This document shows positions 1-43,609 of a stretch of 64,000 nt of DNA, piece after piece. This DNA is from Penicillium oxalicum (taxonomy: Eukaryota > Ascomycota > Eurotiomycetes > Eurotiales > Aspergillaceae). Position 1 is the stretch's first letter, and each line of letters opens with the position of its first letter. The stretch lies in contig NC_064652.1 in the NCBI RefSeq assembly GCF_001723175.1, positions 3,286,001-3,350,000 on the forward strand. The letters are read 5' to 3'. Below the pieces are notes generated by a model. That model saw only the letters and a program-made list of their open reading frames with translations. It was not told the DNA's origin and searched no databases. The position numbers were made by a program, and so were the translations under genes.

Positions 1-160
1 CGCCAATCACTGCCGCCCGCCCCTTCACCTTGGCCTTCCCCTTGGGCAATCGGGTGGAATAGCGCTCATGCAGTGTGATGAATTGCACAGCGGGGCGTTG
101 TATTGCCACGTCTCGTCCCCCACACCTGCATCCTCTCCTGTGGGGCGATCTTTCGACGTG
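1..160 (+). pseudogene. Degenerate protein-coding fragment related to 3350-3510 (inverted)
   Basis: The first 160 bases are similar to the reverse complement of about 3350-3510. Both translate, with frame changes, to a stretch containing ALMQCD followed by YCHV and SP. The family is not recognised. The copy at the window edge is cut off and has no complete frame. It is probably an old duplicated gene fragment, now on either side of the HeLo gene in opposite orientation. Confidence 0.4.
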
Positions 161-299
161 AGGTTGATTTATTTTCTGGCGCAGAGAGCACGAACTGCTT
201 TCTAGCTGCGGCTGAGGTGCCTAACGCTCTTGCGCTTCCGGACACCTTGACTATTACAGATAGCAAGAGAGACATAAAGCTTACTTGGATCACATAAAA

Positions 300-2260
300 G
301 ATAATTCTCCGGTTTCATTTTACCTGCTCAGAGAACATCTGCGGTGGATATCTGCCTTTATGCACACGTCCATAGGCTCTTATAGAGTACTCCTACGTTG
401 CCACAGGTATCCAAAAATTACATGAGCCTAATTGGCGGTCCAAGCTGATTGTCATTGCGCTAATTTGCTTTTTGAATGCCAAGTGATCTGAGATGGCGTC
501 TCAAGTATCGGATAGGGCACCCTCAAATGTCTCGTTACCTGCTATCTTGTATCTACCCCCGCGCCATGCTTAGAAACATTGGGTAAAAAGGACAAATTTC
601 CTATACGCCGAGTCCTTAGTAAGTCTACCGTTATGTTGGACGGGTGATGTTTCTGCTTCCATAATACTTTCTGTTATACTTTTTAAGTCTTCATCGCATT
701 CCCCAGCCTTTTTGATCTCATATATTTTTACGAATCACAGCGCGCCTTGAAAGGTGAAAGCACCACTCGAGTCTTAGTATTTAGGAGCACTGAACAACCT
801 AGCGTGTGTGTGAGATGTGAGAACTGCGGTTGTGGACAGAAACCAATGCCTTCGTTATCAATACTATAGGACACGTAGCGCAATGCTTTGACATTAACTC
901 TGGGCCCTGTGATCCCGACTGACCATCCTTGGCCTAGCTCAAGGCTAGCCTCTTCAGGATTAGCGCACCGTGAGATATTAACTTACGTGATCCCACATCC
1001 AGGGCGGAACGAAAAACCTTCATTTCCTCATTTCCTCGGGGGATCGCGTAGACCCCGAACTCCACGTGACCATTGACTCAAACCAAGGCAGAATGCGGGG
1101 CTCCACCAAAATCAACCGTTTAACTTGCAGTTGGTGAGAATTGCCAAACGGTAACTAAGAAGATTGCAGGCTCTATATTCCACAGTAGTTCAAATGTGGT
1201 TGAAAGTCAAAAATTGAGCTCTTTCTCTCAACAAAACCGCTCTATCAATTTTGCTCGGCATTGTTTTCGTCTGCTCAGCCCAGAGCGTTCAGATGCTCTT
1301 GGTGTTCAACGGTCGAAAAAACTCCCTGGCTGACTATGTTTAAGTTAGTTACTCTGGCGGTTGCCGGGCTGTCGTTGAAAGGCTACAGTAATGATTTTAA
1401 GAGTCATAATTTTGTTTTCATAATAACTAAACAATGTGTAACTTACATCTAGTTAAAAATTATGCTCATATCGCATGATTCAACCCCTCTTTGGAAGCTC
1501 ACCGGTCAATTTAGGCTAATTGCTGACGTAGATTCATCCTTGCCAAAAGTCCCGCAAAGACAAGCATGACTGTACACCCGCAGCAATTATTTTGATGCTG
1601 CTGGAAACACCAACGGTTATCACGTCTACGGACCGACAACCCAGCATATTTTTGACCTCTTTGACAATGCTGCGAAGCTTCGCATAGAGATTCAATGACG
1701 TTTGGTATGCTCAGGATTGTGGTGGAATCGTTAGATCTGGCTGGTGGAATTTGATTTCAAAGAACCTGTCCACCAATAACTAATCGCTGACTAATTTAGG
1801 TAATTACAGAGCCGGGCGTTTCTATCATATAATTTAAGACCGAGTAAGTTATCCTTCCTTAACCCGGCCTTGGATGGATCACAATAGGTACTGGACGGCC
1901 AAAACTTCAATGCCCGCCCTGAAGAAGGGCAATGCTAGCGATGATTCTAGCTCCCTACTAGCAGCTACACAACCTTCTCCTTCGATATTTCATTTGCATG
2001 GTGGCCAGCACGAGACTTTTTGCTCGGTAATGAATTTACCTCGAGGATTTTCGAGACGTCCTCAATTTGGGCTTATGCGCATTTCCAGTCCAGCAAAGCT
2101 AAGTTTAAGCCCAAATGGGCATAGCGTGACCAGAATGCTCAGTCCTCTATTATTAATTCACGAAACAAAGCAACTCGCAGGCATGAACGTCGGATTGTCT
2201 TCAATACATATCTGAATCCCATGAACTGCTCCGAACTGCAGTCAGCTGGTCAACGCAGCG
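300..2260. other. No recognisable gene
   Basis: AT-rich, stop-dense sequence. The short open frames here, including one of 113 codons at 1874-2215, show no recognisable motif, convincing splice sites or codon bias. I see nothing supportable apart from decayed intergenic DNA. Confidence 0.5.
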
Positions 2261-2371
2261 CTATCTTCTTTTGCTTGCATCAGATGCGACCGTCATTACA
2301 TAGTGACCTTGCTGATCCTGCCCTATTTTCTGGACAGTAGACTCCGTGGTGTTGAAGATCATGTTTTCATT
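2261..2371 (-). other. Second exon: candidate amyloid signalling motif of the HeLo effector
   Basis: After splicing, this exon continues the HeLo frame for 36 residues and ends at TAG (2263-2261). Its core, N-M-I-F-N-T-T-E-S-T-V-Q-K-I-G, resembles the layout of HET-s or RHIM/PP-type motifs: an Asn, alternating hydrophobics, then Q-x-I-G. It matches the receptor N-terminus encoded at 3834-4060. Unspliced read-through instead gives an unrelated Ser-rich tail, so the splice matters. Confidence 0.6.
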
Positions 2372-3150
2372 CTGCTTGCATTAACAACACGATGACACGA
2401 TGATAGACTAGAGAGAGGAGAATCAGATCGACCTCCACTTACTCTTTGCTCCAATAGATTCTTGACAGCCGTGTTCATTACTGGATCCCGCTCCGATGCA
2501 GAGCGCAATTCCTTCATGACTTTGAGAAGCTTATCCATTTCCTCCCCGCCCGCCGCTTCTTCGTCGCTCGCAGACGGAGTGTAAATTTGGTACAGTGCGT
2601 CAATGTGGTCATTGATGTCCTTGACTAGCTTCTCGAGATGCTTCTCGTCGTAAATAGCGAACTTGAAGAGTCTAGGAACTGACATCTTGTTTCTGCGCTC
2701 GTGCACGATTTTTTGCATTGTCTCATGGAGGTAACGGTGCATAGCACTCCACTTAAAGCCATCCTGGCCGAACGGCTTCATTTCGTTCGCTCTCACTTCA
2801 GGGTCATCCTCAGACTTTCCTTTGCGTTCATTATGACAGATTTTCATGGACTCTTCGAAAAAAGTCGCCAAGATCTGAAATGTCCGTATAGCCTGATTCT
2901 CTTGCTCCTCGTCGAGCTGGAATAAGCCCGAGCTTTTCAGCGACTCCTCGTCTTCGATATTCGAGCCTGTCAGACCGACAGCCTGGCCCCAGCGCGTTAG
3001 TCTCAGCTGCGCACTGCCAAGCTTCACGATCAGAGACTGAAGTCGCGGGGCCGCCTTTCTGGCAATGTAGATGTAGTCAAACCAGGTAATAATCGTGGTA
3101 AAAAGACCGGCTAGCCCAGATGCCGCACTAATAACTTCTACACCCGTCAT
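2261..3150 (-). CDS. HeLo-domain cell-death effector (HET-S-like) with C-terminal amyloid-type motif
   Basis: Two exons: 3150-2443 and 2371-2261, joined by a 71-bp intron with donor GTAAGT. The product is about 272 aa; HET-S/s is 289. The start at 3150 was chosen because the protein then begins like HeLo domains: a hydrophobic N-terminal helix (ASGLAGLFTTI), then the R-L-T-R-W-G segment about 40 residues on. The HeLo domain fills residues 1 to about 210. The short second exon encodes a polar tail with the core STVQKIGQDQ. In the HET-S family the HeLo domain is a membrane-targeting, pore-forming cell-death domain unmasked when the C-terminal motif is templated into amyloid. The gene is divergent from the NLR at 3834, as HET-S is from NWD2. 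The acceptor could also be 3 bases earlier (CAG repeated), adding one residue. The domain call is strong. The tail's amyloid role is inferred. Confidence 0.85.
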
Positions 3151-3833
3151 CACGGTAGAAGTGCGCCTGTCTGTGTGTGAATGTATAGACTGGTTGATGA
3201 TGATAGGCCTGGGGGAGCTCGGTATGGATTTTGCGCATAATTCTTGGGGTAATGTGGTCTTATGTATCAAAGAGCGAGGTCACCAAATTCACTGGTGCTT
3301 GCGGCTGGAAAGCGGTCCGTGCGATTCGCTTGTTGGAAAATGAGGCATTGTCACCTGCAATGGAAACGCTGCCCGGAGCGATCTTCAACCGCGGGGACGC
3401 GACGTGGCAGTACGATGCGGCGCAGTACAATCTGTCGCACTGCATGAGCGCTGTCCCCCACCCGCTTGCCCTAAGGTAGGGGGCGGGCGCCAGCGATTGG
3501 TGGGCGACGTGCAGCAGCGGCGCGATATCTGCAATGCTTGCCGCTGGCGCTATGTTACAACATCGGAGCCAGTGACGGATCCAATAGCGGTTTTCGCACA
3601 TGCAAGACCCATGGAGTCAGCCCTGCTATCCGCATTGGCTTTCAGCCTGATGACCCCGCTTTTCATACAAGTGCGAGAGACAGACGGAAAGAGGTCTCTG
3701 ATCGGTCTGGTAATGACGGGTCGAATTCTATCACCTACCGAATTTCTCCGCTGTTAGCGGCGCACTGCCGTGCGACTGCCAGATACGCTCAACTCACTAC
3801 ACGGCGGACTTAGCCAGGGTCAGTTGACTTGTC
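3151..3833. promoter_or_regulatory. Divergent intergenic region between effector and receptor
   Basis: About 680 bp separate the two start codons, so both genes probably share this control region. It contains a decayed coding fragment (minus frame, about 3601-3260) related to bases 1-160. No clear TATA box or operator was identified. Confidence 0.45.
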
Positions 3834-4093
3834 ATGTCGATAAGGAGGCACCAGTGGGACAACAATGGGGGAAATGTCCAATTCGAAGGCACTGCGACAC
3901 ATTCGTACGTCGATATTGATGATTGTACCGCGTTGACGAGTATTACTAACTTGGTGCCATCTTAGCACCTTCATTCAAAACATCGGAGGTACGTCTGAAC
4001 ATCAAGTTTTCCTCCTGGCGGTACTCCGTCTGACATGAAAGCTCGCAAGACCAAGACCGACAAAGCAGGGATCGCTGCCGCGAATACTTCGCA
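3834..4093 (+). other. Spliced N-terminal exons of the NLR with candidate amyloid motif
   Basis: The NACHT frame is closed upstream by TGA at 4031, so exon 3 cannot simply extend to a start codon. Two small upstream exons solve this: ATG at 3834, exon 1 to 3904, a 23-base exon 3966-3988, then entry at 4050, all in phase. The joined residues read [13 protein letters not shown] then IQNIGDQD, similar to the HeLo tail. Splice signals are good but unproven. Confidence 0.65.
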
Positions 4094-7000
4094 GTGACGG
4101 ATCCGCGCGACGTCAAGACAAACATCCACCAGACAAGAGGGGCGCCCCTCAAAGAGTCCTATGAATGGATCCTCCACCACCACCAGTTCCAGTGTTGGCG
4201 CGACGGTAACAACAGTAACGACAGTCAGGTCCTTTGGATCAAGGGGGATCCTGGTAAAGGCAAGACAATGCTACTCTGTGGCATCATCGACGAGCTTAAC
4301 CCGACCATAGAAATAGCAGATTCCCAAGCCAAGACATTCCTGTCTTTCTTTTTCTGTCAAGCCACTGTTCCTAAGCTGAGTAACGCTCATGCTGTCTTAC
4401 GTGGGTTGATCTATATGCTTGTGGACACACAACCATCATTTCTCTCTCTTATACAGAAAAGGTTCAATCAAAATGGGGAGCCACAATTTGGGGGTGCGGA
4501 AGCATGGGCTGCATTGTGCAATATGTTCTTATGTATCTTGCGCGCCTGTACCACGGACAAGATCTACATTATAGTTGATGCTCTGGACGAATGCGTACAG
4601 GACCAAGATAAACTGTTACAGCTTATTCTCCAGGAGACAAGGGGATTACCGCACGTCAAATGGATCATATCCAGCCGGAACCACGTTAATCAGCGCATAA
4701 GGCTTGACGACTCGCAGTCAATACTGAGCCTGGAACTGCAGGAAAACGCCGAAGCTGTGTCTCTGGCCATCGGAGCTTACATCTCGAACCGGTTAGCGGA
4801 ACTTGAGTCTCTGGAGGAGGATGATACTTTGCTGGAATATGTTCAGCAGACCCTCGAGGAGAAAGCCGAAGGAACGTTTCTCTGGGTGGCGCTCGTCGTC
4901 CAGGAACTTCGGGGCGTTGATAGCTGGGACGTGAAGCAAGTGGTGGATGAAGTGCCGACAGGGTTGGATGATATGTATGCGCGAATGATAGACCAGATCG
5001 AACAGGAAGCGCCTCGAACCCGAAAGTTTTGCCACTTGGTCCTCTCAGCTGCTACCCTGGCCTATCGGCCGCTTCAGCTACTGGAGCTAGGGGCAGTGTC
5101 GGGACTCCCTGACGAGATCGCCGGAAAGGCGAAAAGTCTTGTGACGATGATCAAGAGGACCGGCTCGTTCCTCACGGTCCGCGACGAAAGCATCTACTTT
5201 GTGCATCAGTCTGCCAAGGACTATCTAATCGGAAAGGGCGCGCAGAGTATCTTCTCGGCTGGCCCTACGGTTGCCCATCGCCGAATGTTCACGCAGTCCC
5301 TCCAGGTCGTGAAGAAGGCGTTACGGCGGGATATGTATAGCCTAGGAGCCCTGGGTACTCCTATCAAGCAAGCCCAGCCACCTAATCCGGATCCGCTTGC
5401 AGTCGCACGATACTCGTGTGTCTACTGGGTCGACCATCTACGAGAAAGCGGATCATACGAAGATCTCAAGGAGGGTGGTACTGTCGACACGTTTCTTCGA
5501 ACGCAGTGTCTCTACTGGCTCGAGGCACTGAGCCTCCTGCGAAGCATATCGGATGGAATTATGTCGATACAGAGACTGAAGGATCTCGTATTGGTATGTG
5601 TTCATTTCGGGAATTGGAACTGCTCTAACACCGCGATAGGAACGACCGACAGCAGCCAAACTGAGCATCCTCGTCCAAGATACATATCGATTCATTCTGT
5701 ACCACCGAATGGCGATCGAGAACAGCCCCCTACAGGCGTACGGTTGTGGGCTTGTATTTAGTCCATCGCGGAGTTTGATTAAGAAGTTGTTCTGGCACGA
5801 GCGGCCCAAAGATGTCACGATGATGCCGCCAATGGGAAATGACTGGGATGCGCACACCGGGGCATGCCTGCAGACGCTGGAGGGCCATGATAGCTATGTC
5901 AACTCAGTGGTGTTCTCCCCCGACGGCAGCCGCGTCGCGTCCGGGTCTTCGGATAACACGATCAAGATCTGGGATGCGCACACCGGGGCCTGCCTGCAGA
6001 CGCTAGAGGGCCATGGCGACTGGGTCAACTCAGTGGTGTTCTCCCCCGATAGCAGCCACGTCGCGTCCGGGTCGGAGGACGAGACGATCAAGATCTGGGA
6101 TGCGCACACCGGGGCCTGCTGCAGACGCTGAGGGCCATGATCGGATAGTCACTCAGTGGTGTTCTCCAACAGCAGTCGGCTCGCGTCCGGGTCGGACGAC
6201 AAGACGATCAAGATCTGGGATGCGCACACCGGGGCTGCCTGCAGACGCTGGAGGGCCATAATGACGATGTCAACTCAGTGGTGTTCCCCCAAGAGCAGCC
6301 GCGCTCGCGTCCGGGTCGGACGACAAGACGATCAAGATCTGGGATGCGCACACCGGGGCCTGCCTGCAGACGCTGAAGGGCCATGATCGGATAGTCACCT
6401 CAGTGGTGTTCTCTCGGACAGCAGCCTCATCGCGTCCGGGTCTAGGGACAAGATGATCAAGATCTGGGATGCGCACACCAGGGCCTGCTTGCAGACGCTG
6501 GCGGGTCATAATGACGATGTCAGCTCAGTGGTGTTCTCCTACGACAGCAGTCGCGTCGCGTCCGGGTCGGACGACAATACGATCAAGATCTGGGATGCGC
6601 ACACCGGGGCCTGCCTGCAGACGCTGGAGGGCCATAATGACGATGTCAGCTCAGTGGTGTTCTCCTACGACAGCAGCCGCGTCGCGTCCGGGTCGGCCGA
6701 CAGGGCGATCAAGATCTGGGATGCGCACACTGGGGACTGCCTGCAGACGCTGGAGGGCCATAATCATGATGTCAACTCAGTGGTGTTCTCCCCCGACAGC
6801 AGTCGCGTCGCGTCCGGGTCTTTGGACAAGATGATCAAGATCTGGGATGCGCACACCGGGGCCTGCCTGCAAACCCTAAATGTTGGCAATTATGTGAATA
6901 TTCTTTCCTTCGACACCACCAACTCCTCTCTTCACACTAGCGTTGGGATTTTTCCCCTTCGTGGCTCAGCAACACCTAATCCTAGGCCTCCGACTAAAGT

Positions 7001-7241
7001 GTCCGCGTTAGACCTCCAATCACCTAGTGCAAATCAACTGCCGCAACCCCCCGAATATCAAGGCTACGGTATCAGTTTCGATAGACTCTGGATCACGCGG
7101 CGTTCACAGAACTGGCTCTGGCTGCCTCCCACCTATCGCCCGACCAGTTCGGCTGTAGGAAAGTCCGGAATAGCGGTGGTGCTTGGCTGCCCGTCTGGAC
7201 GTGTTTTGATCTTCGGATTCGCGACTGGGGGTGCCGACTGA
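3834..7241 (+). CDS. NACHT-WD40 NOD-like receptor (HET-E/NWD family), frame-damaged inside WD repeats
   Basis: Best model: exons 3834-3904, 3966-3988, 4050-5593 and 5640-7241, with introns of 61, 61 and 46 bp (GTACGT, GTACGT and GTATGT donors; a TACTAAC branch in the first). About 1,080 aa if frames are kept. Residues 1-40 carry a short motif ending FIQNIGDQD. The NACHT NTPase follows, with Walker A GDPGKGKT at about residue 97, Walker [10 protein letters not shown] at about 206, and a downstream W-I-I-S-S-R. A linker typical of NWD proteins leads to tandem 42-aa WD40 repeats from 5845. The C-terminal segment ([20 protein letters not shown]) is family-typical and ends at TGA 7239-7241. In this family the WD region senses ligand, NACHT oligomerises, and the N-terminal motif templates the partner effector. 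Repeats three to six contain single-base losses that shift frame and then restore it, so the gene may be inactive or the region mis-assembled. Confidence 0.85.
5845..6890 (+). repeat. 126-bp tandem WD40 repeat array of the NLR
   Basis: Nine occurrences of the WDAHTG boundary lie at 5845, 5971, 6097, 6217, 6341, 6466, 6592, 6718 and 6844. Spacing is 126, 126, 120, 124, 125, 126, 126 and 126 bp. Units are nearly identical in DNA. The differences cluster at the residues after the GH of each repeat (DSY, GDW, NDD, NHD) and near the SGS-x-D turn. These are positions known to vary in HET-E-type repeats. The three shortened units (6097-6465) lack nine bases in total. Confidence 0.9.
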
Positions 7242-8494
7242 GCGATTCACGGCTATGGTCAATAGCCAGTTAAGACCCGAAGTAAAGGACAATCGCACGC
7301 AAGCCTTGTCTTGCCACGCGCAGTGGTTTCTCTGGACGGCCGTGGTCGTCACCTGATCGATGGCCTGAGCATAGCGAGTGAATCTTCCGTAATAATTACA
7401 TACTTGGTGTGGGTCTACTTCCATATTTAGCCGCAGTTATATATTTCATACACCAACTTACACCATTGTTATTTTCCCGTGTATTCAACTTCATGAATTT
7501 GTAATCTTAGTACCTCTCCGCTGCCACGGGTTTCGCTCAACTCCACATTGTTGTGACTCACATCATTTTGATGGCCTGGAAAGATGATACCCGACATTAC
7601 ACTTGCGCAATTTTATCCCTCACACTTATCTCTGATGTCATGGTGGGTGGTCTTGGCGTCCCAGCCGTCAACGGCAGATTTCCAGGTAATACATTAGGTC
7701 TTGTACTTCAGCATTGGGACGTGGTATTTAATAGCTTTTGCAAAAGCAGTGATAGCAAGAATCATGTAATTGAGGTATCCTCTATCCACAAATAAGAATT
7801 GACTGGTTGTTAGAGGATAAATATGCTGGACTTGTCAGATACCTCGCGGGTGTTTCACCACGTAGGGCATTTCATGTCATCGGGATGGGGGTTACATAGT
7901 CTCCCAATCCTTCATTGGAAGACCGAACTCGCAGATTCGGACAATTATTTCTTATTCTGAGGGCGCAATTTCCAGGGCAAATTCAAATTATAGAACACGG
8001 CGGGTTATCCTGCTGCTCCTACAGGACGGGCCACTTTCAAATTGAGTAAGCAAATAACCTTCATCCACACCAAGGCTAGTTGATTTAGCTTTAAAATTTA
8101 TTAACACAATAGCGCTACCATTTCAATATCGGATTGTTTCACCATGAGAGGCTTCATTTAATTAACTGCCTACGATCACATGAAGCCGTCGCTAGTTAAC
8201 GGCCGACCTAATTTCATTTATGTTGGCGTGTTGGCTAGCTTTAAGAATAGTGGTTGTTCTCTGGTCACGCATGATATGGACCCAGGTCAAGGGCTATGAA
8301 TTTGAGATTTCTTCCGATGTGAGGCTAAATAGTCTTCCTGACGGTCTTACGTATCCTACGACCAGCATAAACTATGTGATAAATTGTCAGAACCAGAACT
8401 GCACCAGACTTCCACACACGTCATTATGAGAATGATTAAGGAGAATACCTGCGACTACTGTGTCCCCCCGTTGGTCTTTGATGTATCCCCTCAC
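7242..8494. other. No recognisable gene
   Basis: AT-rich spacer between the NLR stop and the end of the ferric-reductase-like gene. The short open frames (for example 7553-7795 and 8220-8429) show no recognisable domains. Confidence 0.5.
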
Positions 8495-10121
8495 TTATTT
8501 TTCAATTTTCAGTGACCCACGGTAGAAGCAAAGTCGATTTTCTTCCTGATATGAAGTCGAAGGGTCCTCATTTGAGTCGGCTCTGCCACAGTAACTTTTG
8601 AATTGTAGGATCTAAGCGGGAGCCAGTATCTATTTCGAATGTCGTTCGGACACCTACTCACGTCAAATCCGCCAGATGTAGGATGATCTAGGCTCGGGAC
8701 CTCTTGCCTCCACTCTTTCACCCATGGCGGATAGTCTCCAACCCCAAGTCAGCAGATACACTAAGAGACTACTTAGGAAGATAGCTCGACGACTCACTAG
8801 ATTCCGCGTCATCTTGCCACAAAATCTCCAGTTTCCGTACCAGCGCTGTCCGTTGCACACTGGCCTTGACTAGCATCTCTATATACGAGAGAGCTCGAAA
8901 AAAGCCAACGTCCTCTACGACTAACACAACGGTCCCAAACCGGAGCAAGTTTTCCGGGCGCCCATATGGTCCGAGCGCAGTGACCGTGATCCAATTCCCG
9001 CGCGGGGAAGCGAGATTCCTATCGTAAAGCTTTTGAGTAATACCTGAGCCGGAACGAGCCACTATCCGTGCGATCTTGTGCGCGCCATCCTTTTTGCATG
9101 CTGCCGCATAGAAGAGGGGCAGTTGCAGACCGGCGTAAATGCCGGCACTTGGCATCCAGAGCTGCACATATTGACCGGGCTGCACAGTCAAAGACGGAGG
9201 TAGACCGATCTCAAGCCAAAGAAGACTATTAGATGCGTTCATAAACACTTCTTGTCTATCGTGTCGCCATGGCTTCCGAGACCACACGGTGGCTCTAAAG
9301 ACGGCGAGACTTGTCACAGCCCAGAGGCAAAGAGCACCTAATAATACCCAACGATACATATATTGTTGTTACAGGAGATGATATCCAAGGGCGTAAATGG
9401 CCACTACCGCAAGCAAATAATGGCATTTCAAAGCGAACTGTACATGTCGTGTTCGTATTGCCGCGCACGTGACCGGAACAATCAGAATGAGCGAGCACCC
9501 AGCCTAGTAGGAGTCAGAGTGATCCGAGGTCCAAAACCGTCTTCTGGCTCAACCGCGAAGTAGACTTACTATGATAGGGAAAATATACCGCGGAGTTATG
9601 AAGATCGAAGCTTCGGTTGTAGACATGATAATAATGCCGTGTAGAAGGGAATGAAACACGCATATACGCCCTATCCATCGATGAAACCATCCGAGCGACT
9701 GGCGGTCGATACATAAGAGATCAGCTGGAAACCCAAAGTTCAGACCGGTGCACAGAGAGGCGATGCTGATGACGGCCAAAGACCCAGCTCTTTTTTGGAC
9801 GACCATCAAGGACGTGGCTCTAGGTCGCAAGGCTAAAATGTCTGTTGCAAGCAAAGATGCCAGTACCAAAGCCTGCCAACATGTTGAGATGTCGAGCCAT
9901 CTGAAAGAATTTGGTAGGTGAACAAAGAGAAGTCGTCGCCAAAACCCCGGCAGCCTTGAGCTCCATGAATGTCAGGACAACAGATATCTTCTTTTGCAAG
10001 CCCAGAACCATATATGCACTGCAGATGAATAGATCAGCCAAGACGCAAGAAAAATCGCAGCGGAAGTACCGCAAACTTCAGGAACAGATAAATTCGAAAG
10101 CCAGTGCAGGAGTTTCGACAT
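8495..10121 (-). pseudogene. Ferric-reductase-like (FRE) transmembrane oxidoreductase, one in-frame stop and C-terminal truncation
   Basis: Modelled exons: 10121 to about 9982, 9900-9570, 9503-8798, 8735-8662 and 8611-8495. Introns 2-4 have good signals (GTAAGT, GTGAGT, GTGAGT); the first donor is poor. About 455 codons. Exon 1 starts with a membrane helix. Exon 2 has further helices and FHRW and LLHG, exon 3 has CHYLL and YHLL. These supply the four haem histidines of the FRE family. The FAD/NAD part follows (PGQYVQLWMP, LGPYG, LEILWQ). An in-frame TAA lies at 9371-9369 in front of two CAA codons, consistent with CAA to TAA. The family HPF motif is altered to LPLF, the nucleotide-binding glycines read VVEDVG, and the last ~100 residues of the family are missing. 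The functional family reduces Fe(III) at membranes. This copy is probably dead. Confidence 0.75.
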
Positions 10122-19356: not shown

Positions 19357-19935
19357 GTGGGTGTCGGTAGGATAGCACTTCGCTAAGGATGCTACAACTG
19401 GAAAAAGGTATTCTGGAACGAATTCTTTAGTCGATTTAGGCGACTGGACAGAGAAAGCTCTATTTATGTTCTGAGAGGCTCGCCTAAGGTTGGTTATGGC
19501 TAGTAGATCTAAGATAATGCCGGTTAGTGATTTTCCGAGATAGTCGCTCAGGTGCTCTTCTGAGGCTAAATTCTTGCTGAAATCTCATGGAGCGGTCTTG
19601 TAGACGGTGGAAATTGGAAACCATGTGTCAGTTTCCAGTCCTTACATTGGTGTGTGTCAACGGCTATAGACGTGGCCATAACCGCTGCCGGGTTTCTCTG
19701 GGTCCATAATGAGCAGGGAATGTCTACCAGAGCACCAGGGCAGAATAATTAACGAACGTGTTGCTTGATTTGTGGACGCGAGTTAAATCAAGTCCCCGAA
19801 CGATTTAACGGTTAGAATGTCACCACGCAAGCGTTGAACGGTAGCTTTGTAGCTCAAGACAAATGACTCAGAAGGAGCTAATTGAGAAGCTTACTACTGA
19901 AGGAGGGGCCGAGTCTGTTCTATAATCCTGGAGGG

Positions 19936-20233
19936 GGTGGTGGTGAAGAGAGGGTGGTGGTGAAGAGAGGGTGGTGGTGAAGAGAGGGTGGTGGTGAAGA
20001 GAGGGTGGTGGTGAAGAGAGGGTGGTGGTGAAGAGAGGGTGGTGGTGAAGAGAGGGTGGTGGTGAAGAGAGGGTGGTGGTGAAGAGAGGGTGGTGGTGAA
20101 GAGAGGGTGGTGGTGAAGAGAGGGTGGTGGTGAAGAGAGGGTGGTGGTGAAGAGAGGGTGGTGGTGAAGAGAGGGTGGTGGTGAAGAGAGGGTGGTGGTG
20201 AAGAGAGGGTGGTGGTGAAGAGAGGGTGGTGGT
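19936..20233. repeat. 17-bp minisatellite, 17 perfect units plus a partial
   Basis: Unit GGTGGTGGTGAAGAGAG repeated without variation from 19936 to 20224, then 9 further bases. Since 17 is not a multiple of 3 and the unit lacks stops on the minus strand, all three minus frames stay open and encode the same 17-residue His/Pro/Ser/Thr cycle. No start context or domain suggests translation. Confidence 0.95.
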
Positions 20234-35766: not shown

Positions 35767-37503
35767 CTATGGGACCCGGGCGGTTTGAAGTTGATCCGAC
35801 GAAGACCAGAAAAGAGTAGAATCCAAGACTTCGCCTGGAATGTATCCAGGCTGTAACCAGACGGTGGGAAAGCTTCGCTGAAGGGGGTAGGATGGCAAAG
35901 TCGAAATAGCTGTGACCGCTTGCTCATTAGTTGACGTCGAAGTTATTGGTACGTTCTTGTTGATCGCCTCACCTAGATTTGGTGTTACTACTTTCCTATC
36001 GGCACTGGTCTCACCACCGTTCTCCCCGCCGTACTTGACGTAGACAACAGTATTCACACCTGTGACAACCTCCATTAGCTTCACACTAGACAACGCATCT
36101 CCAGCGTGTAAGCTTACCAATTTCACCCCTCTCATAGCGCTCCTCTATCTTGCGCACGTGAAGAATTTCATAGAGGATCTCCACATAAAATTGTGGCTTC
36201 ACACTCCGCTGGATATCGCCAGCGATGACCTTTAGATTCTCAGCAGTGATTCCCCGGTTTCCAAGATTGCGGATAATATGCAGCAGAAGCTTGATGCGAT
36301 CTGTGAGAAACTGTGAGTAAAACTCAAAATGGATAGGACAAGATGGTTTAATATACAATCCTTGATCAGGTGGTCTGGCTCTTTGTGTATGACACCTTCG
36401 GGCCACCACTCGGGCTTGGTTTCCTCTGGGTCGCCTGTGGCTTGAGCCGAGCCTGGCGGGGGCTTTCCACCGCTGTACGGGTGTTGGACCTGCTTGTGAG
36501 GCTCGATGAATTTGATGAATGCCTTGGCAACCGTGCAGCAGTTGCGTTGCTGGAATTGCTCGAATGCACCCTTGTAATATTTGATAACCATTTGTGTGTC
36601 TGCAAGACGTATGGGAGTCATTTTGTCATTGCCCGAGCCATTGCTGTCAGCGTGCAGAATTGTGTGATCTGATTGCTCGACGGCTGACGTGGGAGCTATC
36701 GGCCCTTGCTCCTTGGCTCCTCCTTCGATCATTGGCGTCCTTGTCATCCCAGGGCACTGCTCTTCTCCGCCCTTTCGTCTGGGTTCGTGACTTATGACAT
36801 TCATTGTTATGCTAGGACCTGGGGCGCCAGAATTTAGCCAGGATACTGAATACTGCACGTGAAGTGTCTAGACATACCATATTCACCCCGTTCGAAACGC
36901 TCTTCCATCTCGCGTACCCACAAAATGTCATATATAATGTTCAGATAGGAGAAGGGTCGCAAACGATCCCTGATACGGCCAGCGACTTCCTTAAGCTTTT
37001 CGGCAGTGACGCCCTGGTTTCCAAGCTTGCGAATAATGTGTAACAGTAGTTTGATGCGGGCTAGAGAATAGTGGGATTCAGCGTGGATACCTAGAAAATA
37101 TCCGGAACAACGTACACTCTTTTCCCAGGTGTTCCGGGGCTTTGTGCACCACACTCATTGGCCACCACTCAGGCTTGGTCTTTTCAGGATCGCCTTTGGT
37201 ACCGGGAGCCGATCCCCGAGGAGCCTTGCCGCCGTTATACGGGTGTTGGTCCCGTTTGTGAGGTTGAATGAATTTGATGAATGCGTTTAGGACCACGTTG
37301 CAATTATCTTGTAAGAAGACCTCGAAGGCACCCTTATAGTAATCCGTCACCTTCTCGGTATCCCCAACACAGAGTGAAAGCATCAGGCCGGAATTATTCC
37401 CAGAGCAGTCGCCGCTCTCGGAATCGACACCTCCCAGGCGGCGCCTCACGTGGCGGGTTGACGCATCGAGCATTGCTATACGCCACGTTATAAAACTCAT
37501 CAT
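35767..37503 (-). CDS. Tandem DUF2841 (HrmA-like) protein, five exons
   Basis: Exons 37503-37116, 37060-36878, 36818-36357, 36300-36118 and 36059-35767. All four introns (55-59 bp) interrupt in phase 1 and have usable GT/AG signals. The frame stays open for 502 aa. It holds two DUF2841 domains: YYKGAFEVFLQDN then FIKFIQPHKRDQHPYNGG and KPEWWP, and YYKGAFEQFQQRN then FIKFIEPHKQVQHPYSGG and KPEWWP. Each is followed by a separate 183-bp exon (RIKLLLHIIRxLGNxG). The repeated exon plan shows internal gene duplication and fusion. A Ser/Thr-rich tail (35767-36059) ends the protein. DUF2841 is the domain of Aspergillus fumigatus HrmA, a subtelomeric regulator of colony and hypoxia morphology with no proven biochemistry. 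Alternatively these are two adjacent genes; the perfect phase argues for one. Confidence 0.8.
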
Positions 37504-40431: not shown

Positions 40432-40731
40432 TAACAATCGGCGAGTTTTCTTCTGTCCTGTCAGCGGCCCTGATGAATCCAAATCAGATGTGAGTCTCAC
40501 ATGTATCTGAAAAAAGGATGGAACTCAGGACTCAGGACTTAACTTGCCATTATTCTCTCTCTGCGCGGTTGTCAAATGCGGTCGAGAAGTGCGTAAGTCC
40601 ATCTTACTGTGCGCCTCTTATTGCCTTAATCCTTACTAGGAAAGTATGTTGCGCTCAGATTCGTAATTCCGGTGCTGGTAAAATGGCGGCCGCTTCCTGC
40701 GTCGCGCTAACCGTCTCATGGAGTAAGAGGG

Positions 40732-40927
40732 TATCGTTCGTGTCGGTTAGCCGTAGGCTGCTTCTGGCGCCTGCCCTGAATGTCTTCCCTTCGGGTCCCT
40801 TGGGGTATGCCCAAGTACACCGAAACGCACGTGACAACGCTAATCCCTAGTGTCCGCAGAATGATTGGTTCACGGTCGTCACTCAAATAACTGCGGCCCC
40901 CGCGCTTCTTTGAGGTCCGTAACATAT
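40732..40927 (-). repeat. LTR-like dispersed repeat, copy 1
   Basis: 196 bp nearly identical to the reverse complement of 60691-60886. In the minus orientation it begins TGTTACGGACCTCAAAGAAG, as many fungal Gypsy LTRs begin TGTTACGG. The other end has no clear CA. No internal retrotransposon sequence is present, so it may be a solo or partial LTR. Confidence 0.65.
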
Positions 40928-41005
40928 CTGAGCTTGACCTGAAGAACCATCTATGCACTCCATCTACTCCATTAGAACCTAAAACAGATAGTAAGAAAAT
41001 TGGTG

Positions 41006-41335
41006 TTTAGAAAAGTTGGGTTTAGAAAAGTTGGGTTTAGAAAAGTGGGGTTTAGAAAAGTGGGGTTTAGAAAAGTTGGGTTTAGAAAAGTTGGGTTTAG
41101 AAAAGTTGGGTTTAGAAAAGTTGGGTTTAGAAAAGTTGGGTTTAGAAAAGTTGGGTTTAGAAAAGTTGGGTTTAGAAAAGTGGGGTTTAGAAAAGTGAGG
41201 TTTAGAAAAGTTGGGTTTAGAAAAGTGGGGTTTAGAAAAGTTGGGTTTAGAAAAGTTGGGTTTAGAAAAGTTGGGTTTAGAAAAGTGGGGTTTAGAAAAG
41301 TGGGGTTTAGAAAAGTGGGTCTAGAAAAGTCGAGT
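41006..41335. repeat. 15-bp minisatellite, about 22 units
   Basis: Unit TTTAGAAAAGTTGGG (T/G at position 12) from 41006, last unit degenerate. The 15-bp period keeps frames open on both strands (VGFRK or NPTFL cycles), so long ORFs here are artefacts of the repeat. Confidence 0.95.
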
Positions 41336-42418: not shown

Positions 42419-43225
42419 TCAGCGTTTTCCTATCCCTGAACCGTCCTCAAACTTCTTCACTAGGCTTATAAGTTCTTCGCTTGATTCCTCTGCCCCCACA
42501 TGTTCCTTAACAACCGCGACCTCAAAGTCAAAGACAATCGCGCCGTGATCCGTCATGAGAAAATTGTACCTGTTGAGGTCGCGATGGAGGATACCGTAGT
42601 CATGAAGGAGTCGAGCGGTTATTTGGCAATCTTCAAGATCTCCTGAGCCTGGCGTGCTCCCGGCGATATCTTCCATCAACAAACCAATCGTTCGGTTTAT
42701 CGTTCCTTCATAAGCGTACCCAATCACCTTAGGAGCAAGGGGGAAGCCACGGGACGCTAATAAAGCGTATGTTGATACCTCCCGCTGTAGCGCTGGCACC
42801 TCATGTCGAAACCTGGCGATTTTCAAAACCAACGTTTTGTCACCTAACACCACTCTGGAGACGCGATCGCTAATCCGAGAAAAAGGCACAAGATCTAAGA
42901 TATTGAAGTATGGCGCATCTTTGCCATGAATGACCGCGGTGTTTAAGGAGTGTGGTGGAAATTCGTCGACAGTGGTCTCAATAACACCCTTTGGGGTTTT
43001 CCGGATAGTAAGTGTTGTCCAATCTCCGTTCCAATTTGGAACTGCTCTCAGGTTTGAGAGAATTCGGGAACCATCTGTGCGTTCCTCTGAAGGGATTATG
43101 TCCTCGTGTAACACCGACACGTACACAATTCGAGACTTCCTTCGAATTCGGTAGAGAAAGTCATTATCCTCAAGATCAAGGGAGAGAACTTCCTCCTGTC
43201 CACACATTGTGAAAGAACGAAGCAC
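42419..43225 (-). CDS. Protein-kinase-like protein (fungal APH/kinase family)
   Basis: Open for 268 codons. Start at 43225 or at the second Met, 43207 (MCGQEEVLS). Residues about 130-150 include the lysine-containing DKTLVLKIARF strand, then EVSTYALLASRGFPLAPKV. The catalytic loop is LHRDLNRYNFLM and the metal loop is FDFE, where kinases have DFG. The HRD-x4-N residues are kept and the change of DFG to DFE is common in aminoglycoside-phosphotransferase-like fungal families. Length is short for a full kinase, with a divergent N-terminal half. Substrate unknown. Upstream lie two CACGTG boxes in an 18-bp repeat. Confidence 0.7.
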   Translation of the reverse strand: MLRSFTMCGQEEVLSLDLEDNDFLYRIRRKSRIVYVSVLHEDIIPSEERTDGSRILSNLRAVPNWNGDWTTLTIRKTPKGVIETTVDEFPPHSLNTAVIHGKDAPYFNILDLVPFSRISDRVSRVVLGDKTLVLKIARFRHEVPALQREVSTYALLASRGFPLAPKVIGYAYEGTINRTIGLLMEDIAGSTPGSGDLEDCQITARLLHDYGILHRDLNRYNFLMTDHGAIVFDFEVAVVKEHVGAEESSEELISLVKKFEDGSGIGKR

Positions 43226-43276
43226 GGTGAACTTCGGAGTGTAACCCAGTCGAAAGATTATAGGTTTGGATGATGT

Positions 43277-43320
43277 GTTGCTAGCGCACGTGATGTTGCT
43301 AGCGCACGTGATGTTGCTCG
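43277..43320. promoter_or_regulatory. 18-bp direct repeat with two CACGTG boxes
   Basis: GTTGCTAGCGCACGTGAT occurs at 43277-43294 and 43295-43312, followed by a partial third. The CACGTG palindromes are at 43287-43292 and 43305-43310, 52-80 bp upstream of the kinase-like ORF. CACGTG is the core site of bHLH regulators. Confidence 0.6.
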
Positions 43321-43609
43321 TCTGTCGGAACGTAGCAGGTGGATACCCGGAAGGAGGGAACTATCTACCGCCGAGATTGTACTAGTGACTTCCAAATTGC
43401 TAGCTACAGGATCTCCACATCAGCCAGTTTCGATTTGTCCCTTAAACTACCTGGGCCTCTGGGGGGTGTTAGCGCCTATTTCGCCAAAAGTTGGGCTCCG
43501 AGGCGGGTCAAGTAGGTTTAACTGCATTTGTTTAAAAAGAACAGTGGACTGATGCACGGAAACTATGGTCCTTCCTTGAATAAAGCTTGTTCCCTGCGGT
43601 TGACCTTAA

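Follow-up and report, generated by a model that had tools for sequence, protein, structure and literature searches.

A candidate HeLo/NLR cell-death switch on a transposon-like cassette in Penicillium oxalicum

Here we describe a group of genes at the left end of a 64,000-nucleotide stretch of Penicillium oxalicum DNA (positions 3286001-3350000 of contig NC_064652.1, called C3 below, in an assembly of 30.8 Mb), and by the window we mean the whole of this stretch. In this group, a gene for a HeLo-domain protein, the putative executioner, lies between two NLR genes of mutually inverted orientation, and the whole is bounded by terminal inverted repeats and by TA dinucleotides, and recurs on the same contig. 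Altogether our results make it probable that these genes encode a regulated cell-death switch of two components, borne by a mobile cassette. By analogy with HET-S/NWD2 and HELLP, an NLR of the NACHT-WD40 type would oligomerise once its WD40 repeats bind ligand, the assembled receptor motifs would template the related motif at the C-terminus of the neighbouring HeLo protein, and the N-terminal helix of the HeLo domain would then permeabilise the membrane by forming a pore. The NLR(-)/HeLo(-)/NLR(+) element itself appears to have entered TA target sites on two or more occasions, and a transposase of the Tc1/mariner or pogo type, acting in trans, has probably moved it.

Genes and layout of the cassette

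The cassette unit has the order [NLR a (-)][HeLo (-)][NLR b (+)] and is a near-palindrome, in which inverted arms, each 4.0 to 4.8 kb long, enclose a loop of about 3.3 kb with the HeLo gene. Two units are present, namely unit 1 at C3:3282104-3293892 (11,789 bp), where the coding exons of NLR a1 lie inverted to the left of the window (C3:3285670-3282764), and unit 2 at C3:3386392-3398438 (12,047 bp). A 9.3-kb segment thereby recurs 105 kb away at 99.0% identity, and the inner segments of the two units show but 1 difference in about 7.7 kb, where 23 end columns resulting from unequal cuts are excluded. Moreover, the outer 3' flanks are swapped between the units with the loop orientation kept, which suggests that the arms have recombined with each other.

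The HeLo gene and NLR b1 are divergently transcribed with 683 bp from start to start, just as the original prediction from the bare sequence had described them, and the small exons which it had proposed also stand, since the deposited models use the same exons. In fact, removal of a 71-nt intron between the two HeLo exons (Table 1) gives a protein of 272 aa, ending with NENMIFNTTESTVQKIGQDQQGHYVMTVASDASKRR in the spliced translation, to which the deposited P. oxalicum protein POX_c04579 (P0001) is 100% identical over all 272 aa, and the deposited receptor model P0054 begins with the same small exons as NLR b1. The HeLo protein reaches 99.7 bits with the Pfam profile PF14479 (cut-off 23.2), and its nearest solved structures by sequence are HET-s chains (2wvo, phmmer E 4e-13). 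According to a passage in PMC10197012, it is H33P that distinguishes HET-S, the killer form, from HET-s with its dead HeLo domain. In the phmmer alignment, K32 of our protein, and not a proline, stands opposite position 33 of the 2wvo chain, and the sequence thus appears to give no argument of the H33P kind against an active HeLo domain. Besides the two cassette copies, the sole HeLo match of the genome search is at C1:3711625-3712131, in a 556-aa frame continuing into a region which looks, by eye, like a kinase type.

On the receptor side, NLR b1 matches NPHP3_N with 122 bits and NACHT with 45 bits in Pfam and carries WD40 repeats, which places it among the NACHT-WD40 receptors. Its WD40 units measure 126, 126, 120, 124, 125, 126, 126 and 126 nt in order, and the frame is therefore broken, so that the last exon is no single open frame. 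The deposited model P0060, which fits NLR b1 of the window, lacks the motif exons and ends at this break. The broken frame, which the original prediction did not mention any more than the inverted NLR left of the window or the transposon-like boundaries, speaks against a working switch. In this respect, it is quite possible, if not what we expect, that the pair in the window is decaying, with b1 as a pseudogene and the HeLo protein as an orphan or answering to NLR a1 only. Off-length WD40 units occur three times in b1 and once each, with 125 nt, in NLR a2 and NLR b2, and NLR a1, with 126 nt in every unit, reads as 912 aa and is the sole fully open copy among the four. On the other side, the four copies agree in every position for 1,986 nt or more, counted from the start region, so that decay, if any, is recent; and such off-length units may reflect either decay or assembly error, as near-identical WD40 repeats are, in the relevant passage of PMC12222747, frequently mis-assembled from short reads. 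Upstream of the start, the a and b copies share an identity of 0.67-0.76 only (250-bp bins), and for the identity of the NLR genes despite these differing upstream parts, gene conversion from arm to arm would be the best account.

A motif shared between effector tails and receptor heads

The two components are linked by a short motif which is found at the C-terminus in 14 of 53 HeLo homologues, including effectors of Aspergillus, Parathielavia and Kalmusia, and is conserved at the N-terminus in 8 of 16 receptor hits, with the gap-free register [FWY][DN]x4[NTV][VIA][QM]xxGx6[FYI]x[MQVA]x[VILS] in the family. For the profile test we used 13 of the 14 motif-bearing effectors (P0046 was omitted) and the 8 receptors, all cut to 32 columns around the conserved G of each family; the receptors dropped were P0060 with other first exons, P0063 and P0064 without the motif pattern, and P0065-P0069 without an N-terminus, and P0062 among the receptors fits the pattern only loosely. 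When the two profiles are compared, one gap-free register of 28 columns yields 19.3 bits, a value reached by none of 5000 column permutations (mean 9.3, standard deviation (SD) 1.8, maximum 18.5). Along the 615 columns of the receptor family, the N-terminal register gives 18.4 bits and the 626 others at most 8.4 (mean 2.5, SD 1.3). Similarly in 24 cross pairs of six effectors with four receptors, the family register has a mean score of 21.75, as compared with 5.5 (SD 2.96) for other registers.

When the motif is compared with its own family, side peaks at -12 and +12 (10.3 and 9.5) suggest an inner half-repeat of 12 residues. What the original prediction took for a Q-x-I-G core with its spacing differing by 3 residues is better explained by two [QM]-x-x-G half-repeats in each motif, at a distance of about 12 residues, effector half A having been matched there to receptor half B. 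Its register +12, with QKIG against QNIG, scores 11.0 in the 24 cross pairs (11.3 at +13) against 21.75 and was rejected at family level.

Several results weigh against the shared motif, above all at the level of single pairs. For the P. oxalicum pair P0001/P0054, the best gap-free score of 21, at register +12, is reached by 1083 of 2000 shuffles (shuffle mean 21.6), and for the A. floccosus pair P0002/P0055 the best score of 22 is reached by 818 of 2000. In the family register the pairs score 14 and 18, and the best shuffle scores are at least as high in 1999 and 1711 of 2000 cases, respectively. With the register fixed, z is 2.8 and 3.7 for these two pairs and 4.9 for the non-cognate P0027/P0054, and in a passage of PMC4518210 the HRAM motifs of NLRs generally group with those of their partner. 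Besides, the pattern is missing from the N-terminus of P0063 and P0064, two of the 16 receptor hits. The motif claim therefore rests on the families: that NLR and HeLo protein share a head and tail motif, as originally predicted, holds for the families, in another register, while the match seen within this one pair is at chance. In sequence terms, the same motif thus seems to occur at the NLR N-terminus and at the C-terminus of the neighbouring effector at family level only, and amyloid templating between the two is likely by analogy with the known systems.

As for the homologues that lack the motif, 34 of the 53 effector models seem at their end to run through the exon-1 donor, judged by a loose pattern that the fragment P0053 fits as well, and 5 of the 53 belong to neither class. 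P0002 and P0055 of A. floccosus come from contigs of equal size (338221), and the contigs of P0007, P0067 and P0069 likewise agree in size (17437), and this suggests that the former two are neighbours and the latter an NLR-HeLo-NLR trio on a 17.4-kb contig. A search with a chimeric motif for receptors of other lineages returned 1 of 173 candidates at E <= 10, the weak match P0070 (E 0.32) from Schizothecium, whose model combines HeLo (111 bits), half a motif, an AAA/NB-ARC-like region (NB-ARC below the cut-off) and TPR repeats; it is either a fusion or a fused gene model. At three further P. oxalicum NLR loci, no motif was seen by eye in the translated frames. Podospora pseudocomata P0024 is a HeLo relative with the motif absent from its model, and is relevant as the species is related to that where assays exist. 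In P0013 of Aspergillus navahoensis, the first 100 aa of the HeLo domain are 77% identical to the P0014 type and 67% to P0001, whereas the motif is 71% identical to P0001 and 46% to P0014, a mismatch for which an exchange of motifs is possible.

The signatures of PP, RHIM and PUASM (FxGxGxQxxGxGxF) occur in none of 22 proteins (14 effectors and 8 receptors). The RHIM core is written [IV]Q[IVLC]G, and neither this nor GphiQphiG nor NxGxQxGxN is found in any of the 14 effectors or 8 receptors, so the RHIM/PP-like core that had been supposed is not borne out. Pfam contains a sigma model, sigma-type motifs being of about 40 residues, and a Pfam search with two motif peptides gave no match at E <= 10, where the filters of HMMER may hide short hits. 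Searches of the PDB with motif peptides and profile revealed no amyloid structure, and NCBIfam gave nothing for the three proteins searched.

The case of HRAM is more complicated, and it is possible, though doubtful in our view, that we are dealing not with a new family but with a known one of this kind, of which the motif would be a diverged member present in single copy, the pair otherwise working like HET-S/NWD2. With G19 plus hydrophobic residues at 5, 8, 10, 16 and 18 as the criterion, and T at 10 and Q at 16 and 18 allowed, 4 of the 5 positions around G19 agree in the best windows of all 14 effectors, and HeLo is named as a usual partner of HRAM in a passage of PMC9815663. The receptors P0054, P0055 and P0059 reach 4, 4 and 3, and the other 5 of 8 are unscorable with G too near the start. 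However, the effectors fit with half A of the motif but these three receptors with half B; shuffled tails also reach 4 of 5 positions, in 6 to 20% for the 4 of 14 effectors tried and in 4% for P0054; R or K at position 15 appears in no best window; the motif peptides have no Pfam match; and by the strict pattern no second repeat exists in the 14 effectors, each of which carries one motif. Two repeats per effector are general, if not universal, for HRAM according to a passage of PMC4518210.

It is unlikely that the shared termini bind without amyloid, for example by contact of a beta-hairpin or a helix, or that their likeness is compositional. N, Q, G and T are abundant in both termini, and single pairs stay at chance as described above; but the column permutations keep composition and none of the 5000 reaches the observed score, the N-terminus stands out among 627 receptor registers, and known systems of the same layout are amyloid as presented in parts of PMC7885112 and PMC9815663. 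Templating through a shared amyloid motif is the preferred reading.

Terminal repeats, cassette-free sites and mobility

All four unit ends start with ACCCCCATCCCG[GA]TGACATGAAATG, that is, with near-identical terminal inverted repeats. The terminal 25-mer occurs without mismatch at exactly four genome sites, which are the four unit ends (reversed control 0), and at a fifth site with three mismatches, and TA is present on both sides of both units. Moreover, in a paralogous segment at C3:3443592-3450839, the flanks of unit 1 are joined through a single TA with no cassette, and the bases next to this TA are identical to the unit 1 flanks in 200 of 200 and 199 of 200 positions. For unit 2, the left flank is a repeat with 39 other scored genome matches, and the one inspected is a cassette-free copy in the window, again with a single TA (Table 1). 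Both sites used for comparison are paralogous copies within this contig and do not come from other strains. The cassette shares terminal repeats, a TA duplication and sites without the element with non-autonomous TA-target transposons, and the signalosome has thus apparently moved as such a DNA transposon. The unit 1 flanks have another and older paralogue (81% and 88%) at C3:3372999-3373015, also with no cassette and with about 15 bp between the flanks.

Against such mobility stand two negative results: no DDE_1 or DDE_3 lies in either cassette (other transposase families were not searched), and no further close copies of the terminal repeat were found in the genome. No autonomous partner sharing these ends was found either. 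In the genome, profile searches found 39 DDE_1 matches, 33 of which contain stops, mostly TAG and TAA as after repeat-induced mutation, a sign that the dinucleotide indices of the cassette do not show. Among 7 DDE_3 matches, one locus keeps an open frame of 396 aa about 19 kb left of unit 1. None of the 7 DDE_3 loci has convincing cassette-type ends, and the DDE_1 loci were not scanned for ends. A looser terminal-repeat pattern gave 13 matches with 5 exact ones, the control giving 4. A fifth and diverged terminal-repeat copy is seen at C8:60369-60386. It follows a TPR-repeat remnant (C8:59319-59606) on the downstream side, at a distance of about 0.8 kb, an arrangement resembling the 3' ends of the cassette NLRs; the site is perhaps an old relative carrying another NLR.

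That the cassette is no transposon, its copies having arisen by segmental duplication or inverted-repeat recombination, is very improbable: the region is indeed full of segmental duplications, no transposase of the searched families lies inside, and the cassette-free site of unit 2 is merely another repeat copy, 92-94% alike, but two copies with different flanks, matching ends, TA on both sides and single-TA related sites for both argue for transposition.

In that case, the switch may be able to transpose as a whole. A more far-reaching view, in which the complete switch, with two receptors, an executioner and an undescribed amyloid motif family, is itself a DNA transposon whose receptor-gene arms are kept identical by gene conversion, and acts as a selfish allorecognition or anti-parasite element killing cells with mismatched or disturbed parts, seems to us rather unlikely. 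As an apparent small transposon with receptors and executioner, readable junctions and cassette-free sites, the element makes the spread of cell-death systems by transposition directly testable by PCR in natural strains.

In the surroundings of the cassette, a ferric-reductase-like stretch is located right beside it at 8769-9971 (-) of the window (PF01794, 24.5 bits, below the cut-off of 28), and recurs elsewhere in the heavily duplicated C3 region. Farther along in the window are tandem arrays at 19931-20233 (17-bp unit, 17.8 copies) and 40994-41330 (15-bp unit, 22.5 copies), an open reading frame at 36232-36867 (-) with a YDR124W-like helical bundle domain (PF11001), and another at 42419-43360 (-) with a phosphotransferase match (APH, PF01636) and a weaker RIO1 match.

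Table 1. Positions of cassette features and of a related site in the window
Feature	Position	Strand	Remarks
Left arm, inner end	1..120	.	Promoter side of inverted NLR a1
Single-copy loop of near-palindrome, with HeLo gene	121..3392	.	
HeLo executioner, exon 2	2261..2371	-	C-terminal 36 aa including motif, plus stop; from splicing and translation, identical in P0001
Effector motif FNTTESTVQKIGQDQQGHYVMTVA	2285..2356	-	Pattern in 14/53 HeLo homologues; register from profile comparisons
HeLo executioner, exon 1	2443..3150	-	HeLo domain, residues 1-236; PF14479; similarity to HET-s
Right arm	3393..7892	.	Promoter, NLR b1, 3' flank, terminal inverted repeat ending at 7892
NLR b1, exon 1	3834..3904	+	First part of receptor motif; identical residues in P0054
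NLR b1, exon 2 (23 nt)	3966..3988	+	Second part of receptor motif; identical residues in P0054
NLR b1, exon 3	4050..5593	+	Linker plus NPHP3_N/NACHT domain
NLR b1, exon 4	5640..7241	+	WD40 array, 9 unit starts; 120-, 124- and 125-nt units break the frame
TA right of cassette	7893..7894	.	Partner TA left of window, C3:3282102-3282103
Cassette-free copy of unit 2's target repeat	40663..40924	+	Single TA; 94% over 63 bp (left), 92% over 201 bp (right)

Comparison with known systems

Among the matches listed for open-licence papers, no title deals with the motif or with a TA-bounded NLR/HeLo cassette. As mobile DNA, the cassette may be compared with Starships, which are likewise fungal mobile elements able to carry NLR genes (cited in a passage of PMC9815663, and one described in part of PMC12134995). 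The present units, however, are of 12 kb, use a TA target, have NLRs that form inverted arms and contain no DUF3435 captain, none of the 16 genome matches of DUF3435 lying within or between units 1 and 2; the nearest pieces on C3 are at C3:3577872-3579332, about 180 kb right of unit 2.

As signalling pairs, the sigma systems (het-eN/sesA/sesB) and PUASM resemble ours in having a head and tail motif common to NLR and effector, but here the effector domain is another one, FxGxGxQxxGxGxF occurs in 0 of 22 proteins and the motif peptides are without Pfam match. PNT1/HELLP, whose PP motif is related to RHIM, shares the combination of an NLR with a helical executioner, a short motif and a conserved Q, whereas here the domain is HeLo rather than HeLo-like, GphiQphiG is absent and the distance from Q to G is 3, not 2. 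The closest layout is offered by HET-S/NWD2 of Podospora anserina, with HRAM as motif, where also a HeLo gene with a C-terminal motif is adjacent to a NACHT-WD40 NLR with an N-terminal one. In our case, by contrast, each effector has one motif rather than two repeats and agrees only in part with the HRAM pattern, an intron separates the motif from the HeLo domain, and two inverted NLRs flank one effector within a mobile cassette. Lying behind this intron, the motif has seemingly been overlooked by many gene models, and it may lengthen the list of HRAM, PP, sigma and PUASM, to which a passage of PMC9815663 adds unassigned fungal motifs including NLR34.

NLR34 is described there (Table 1 of PMC9815663) as a motif of 28 residues at the NLR N-terminus in Ascomycota, and in length, phylum and position it is like ours, the comparison being one by description and not of sequence logos; the difference is that an effector is present here, while the part of PMC9815663 concerned reports none found for NLR34. 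With PP, RHIM and PUASM absent and HRAM agreeing in part, the motif may accordingly represent a new family, the effector side of NLR34, or a far relative of HRAM.

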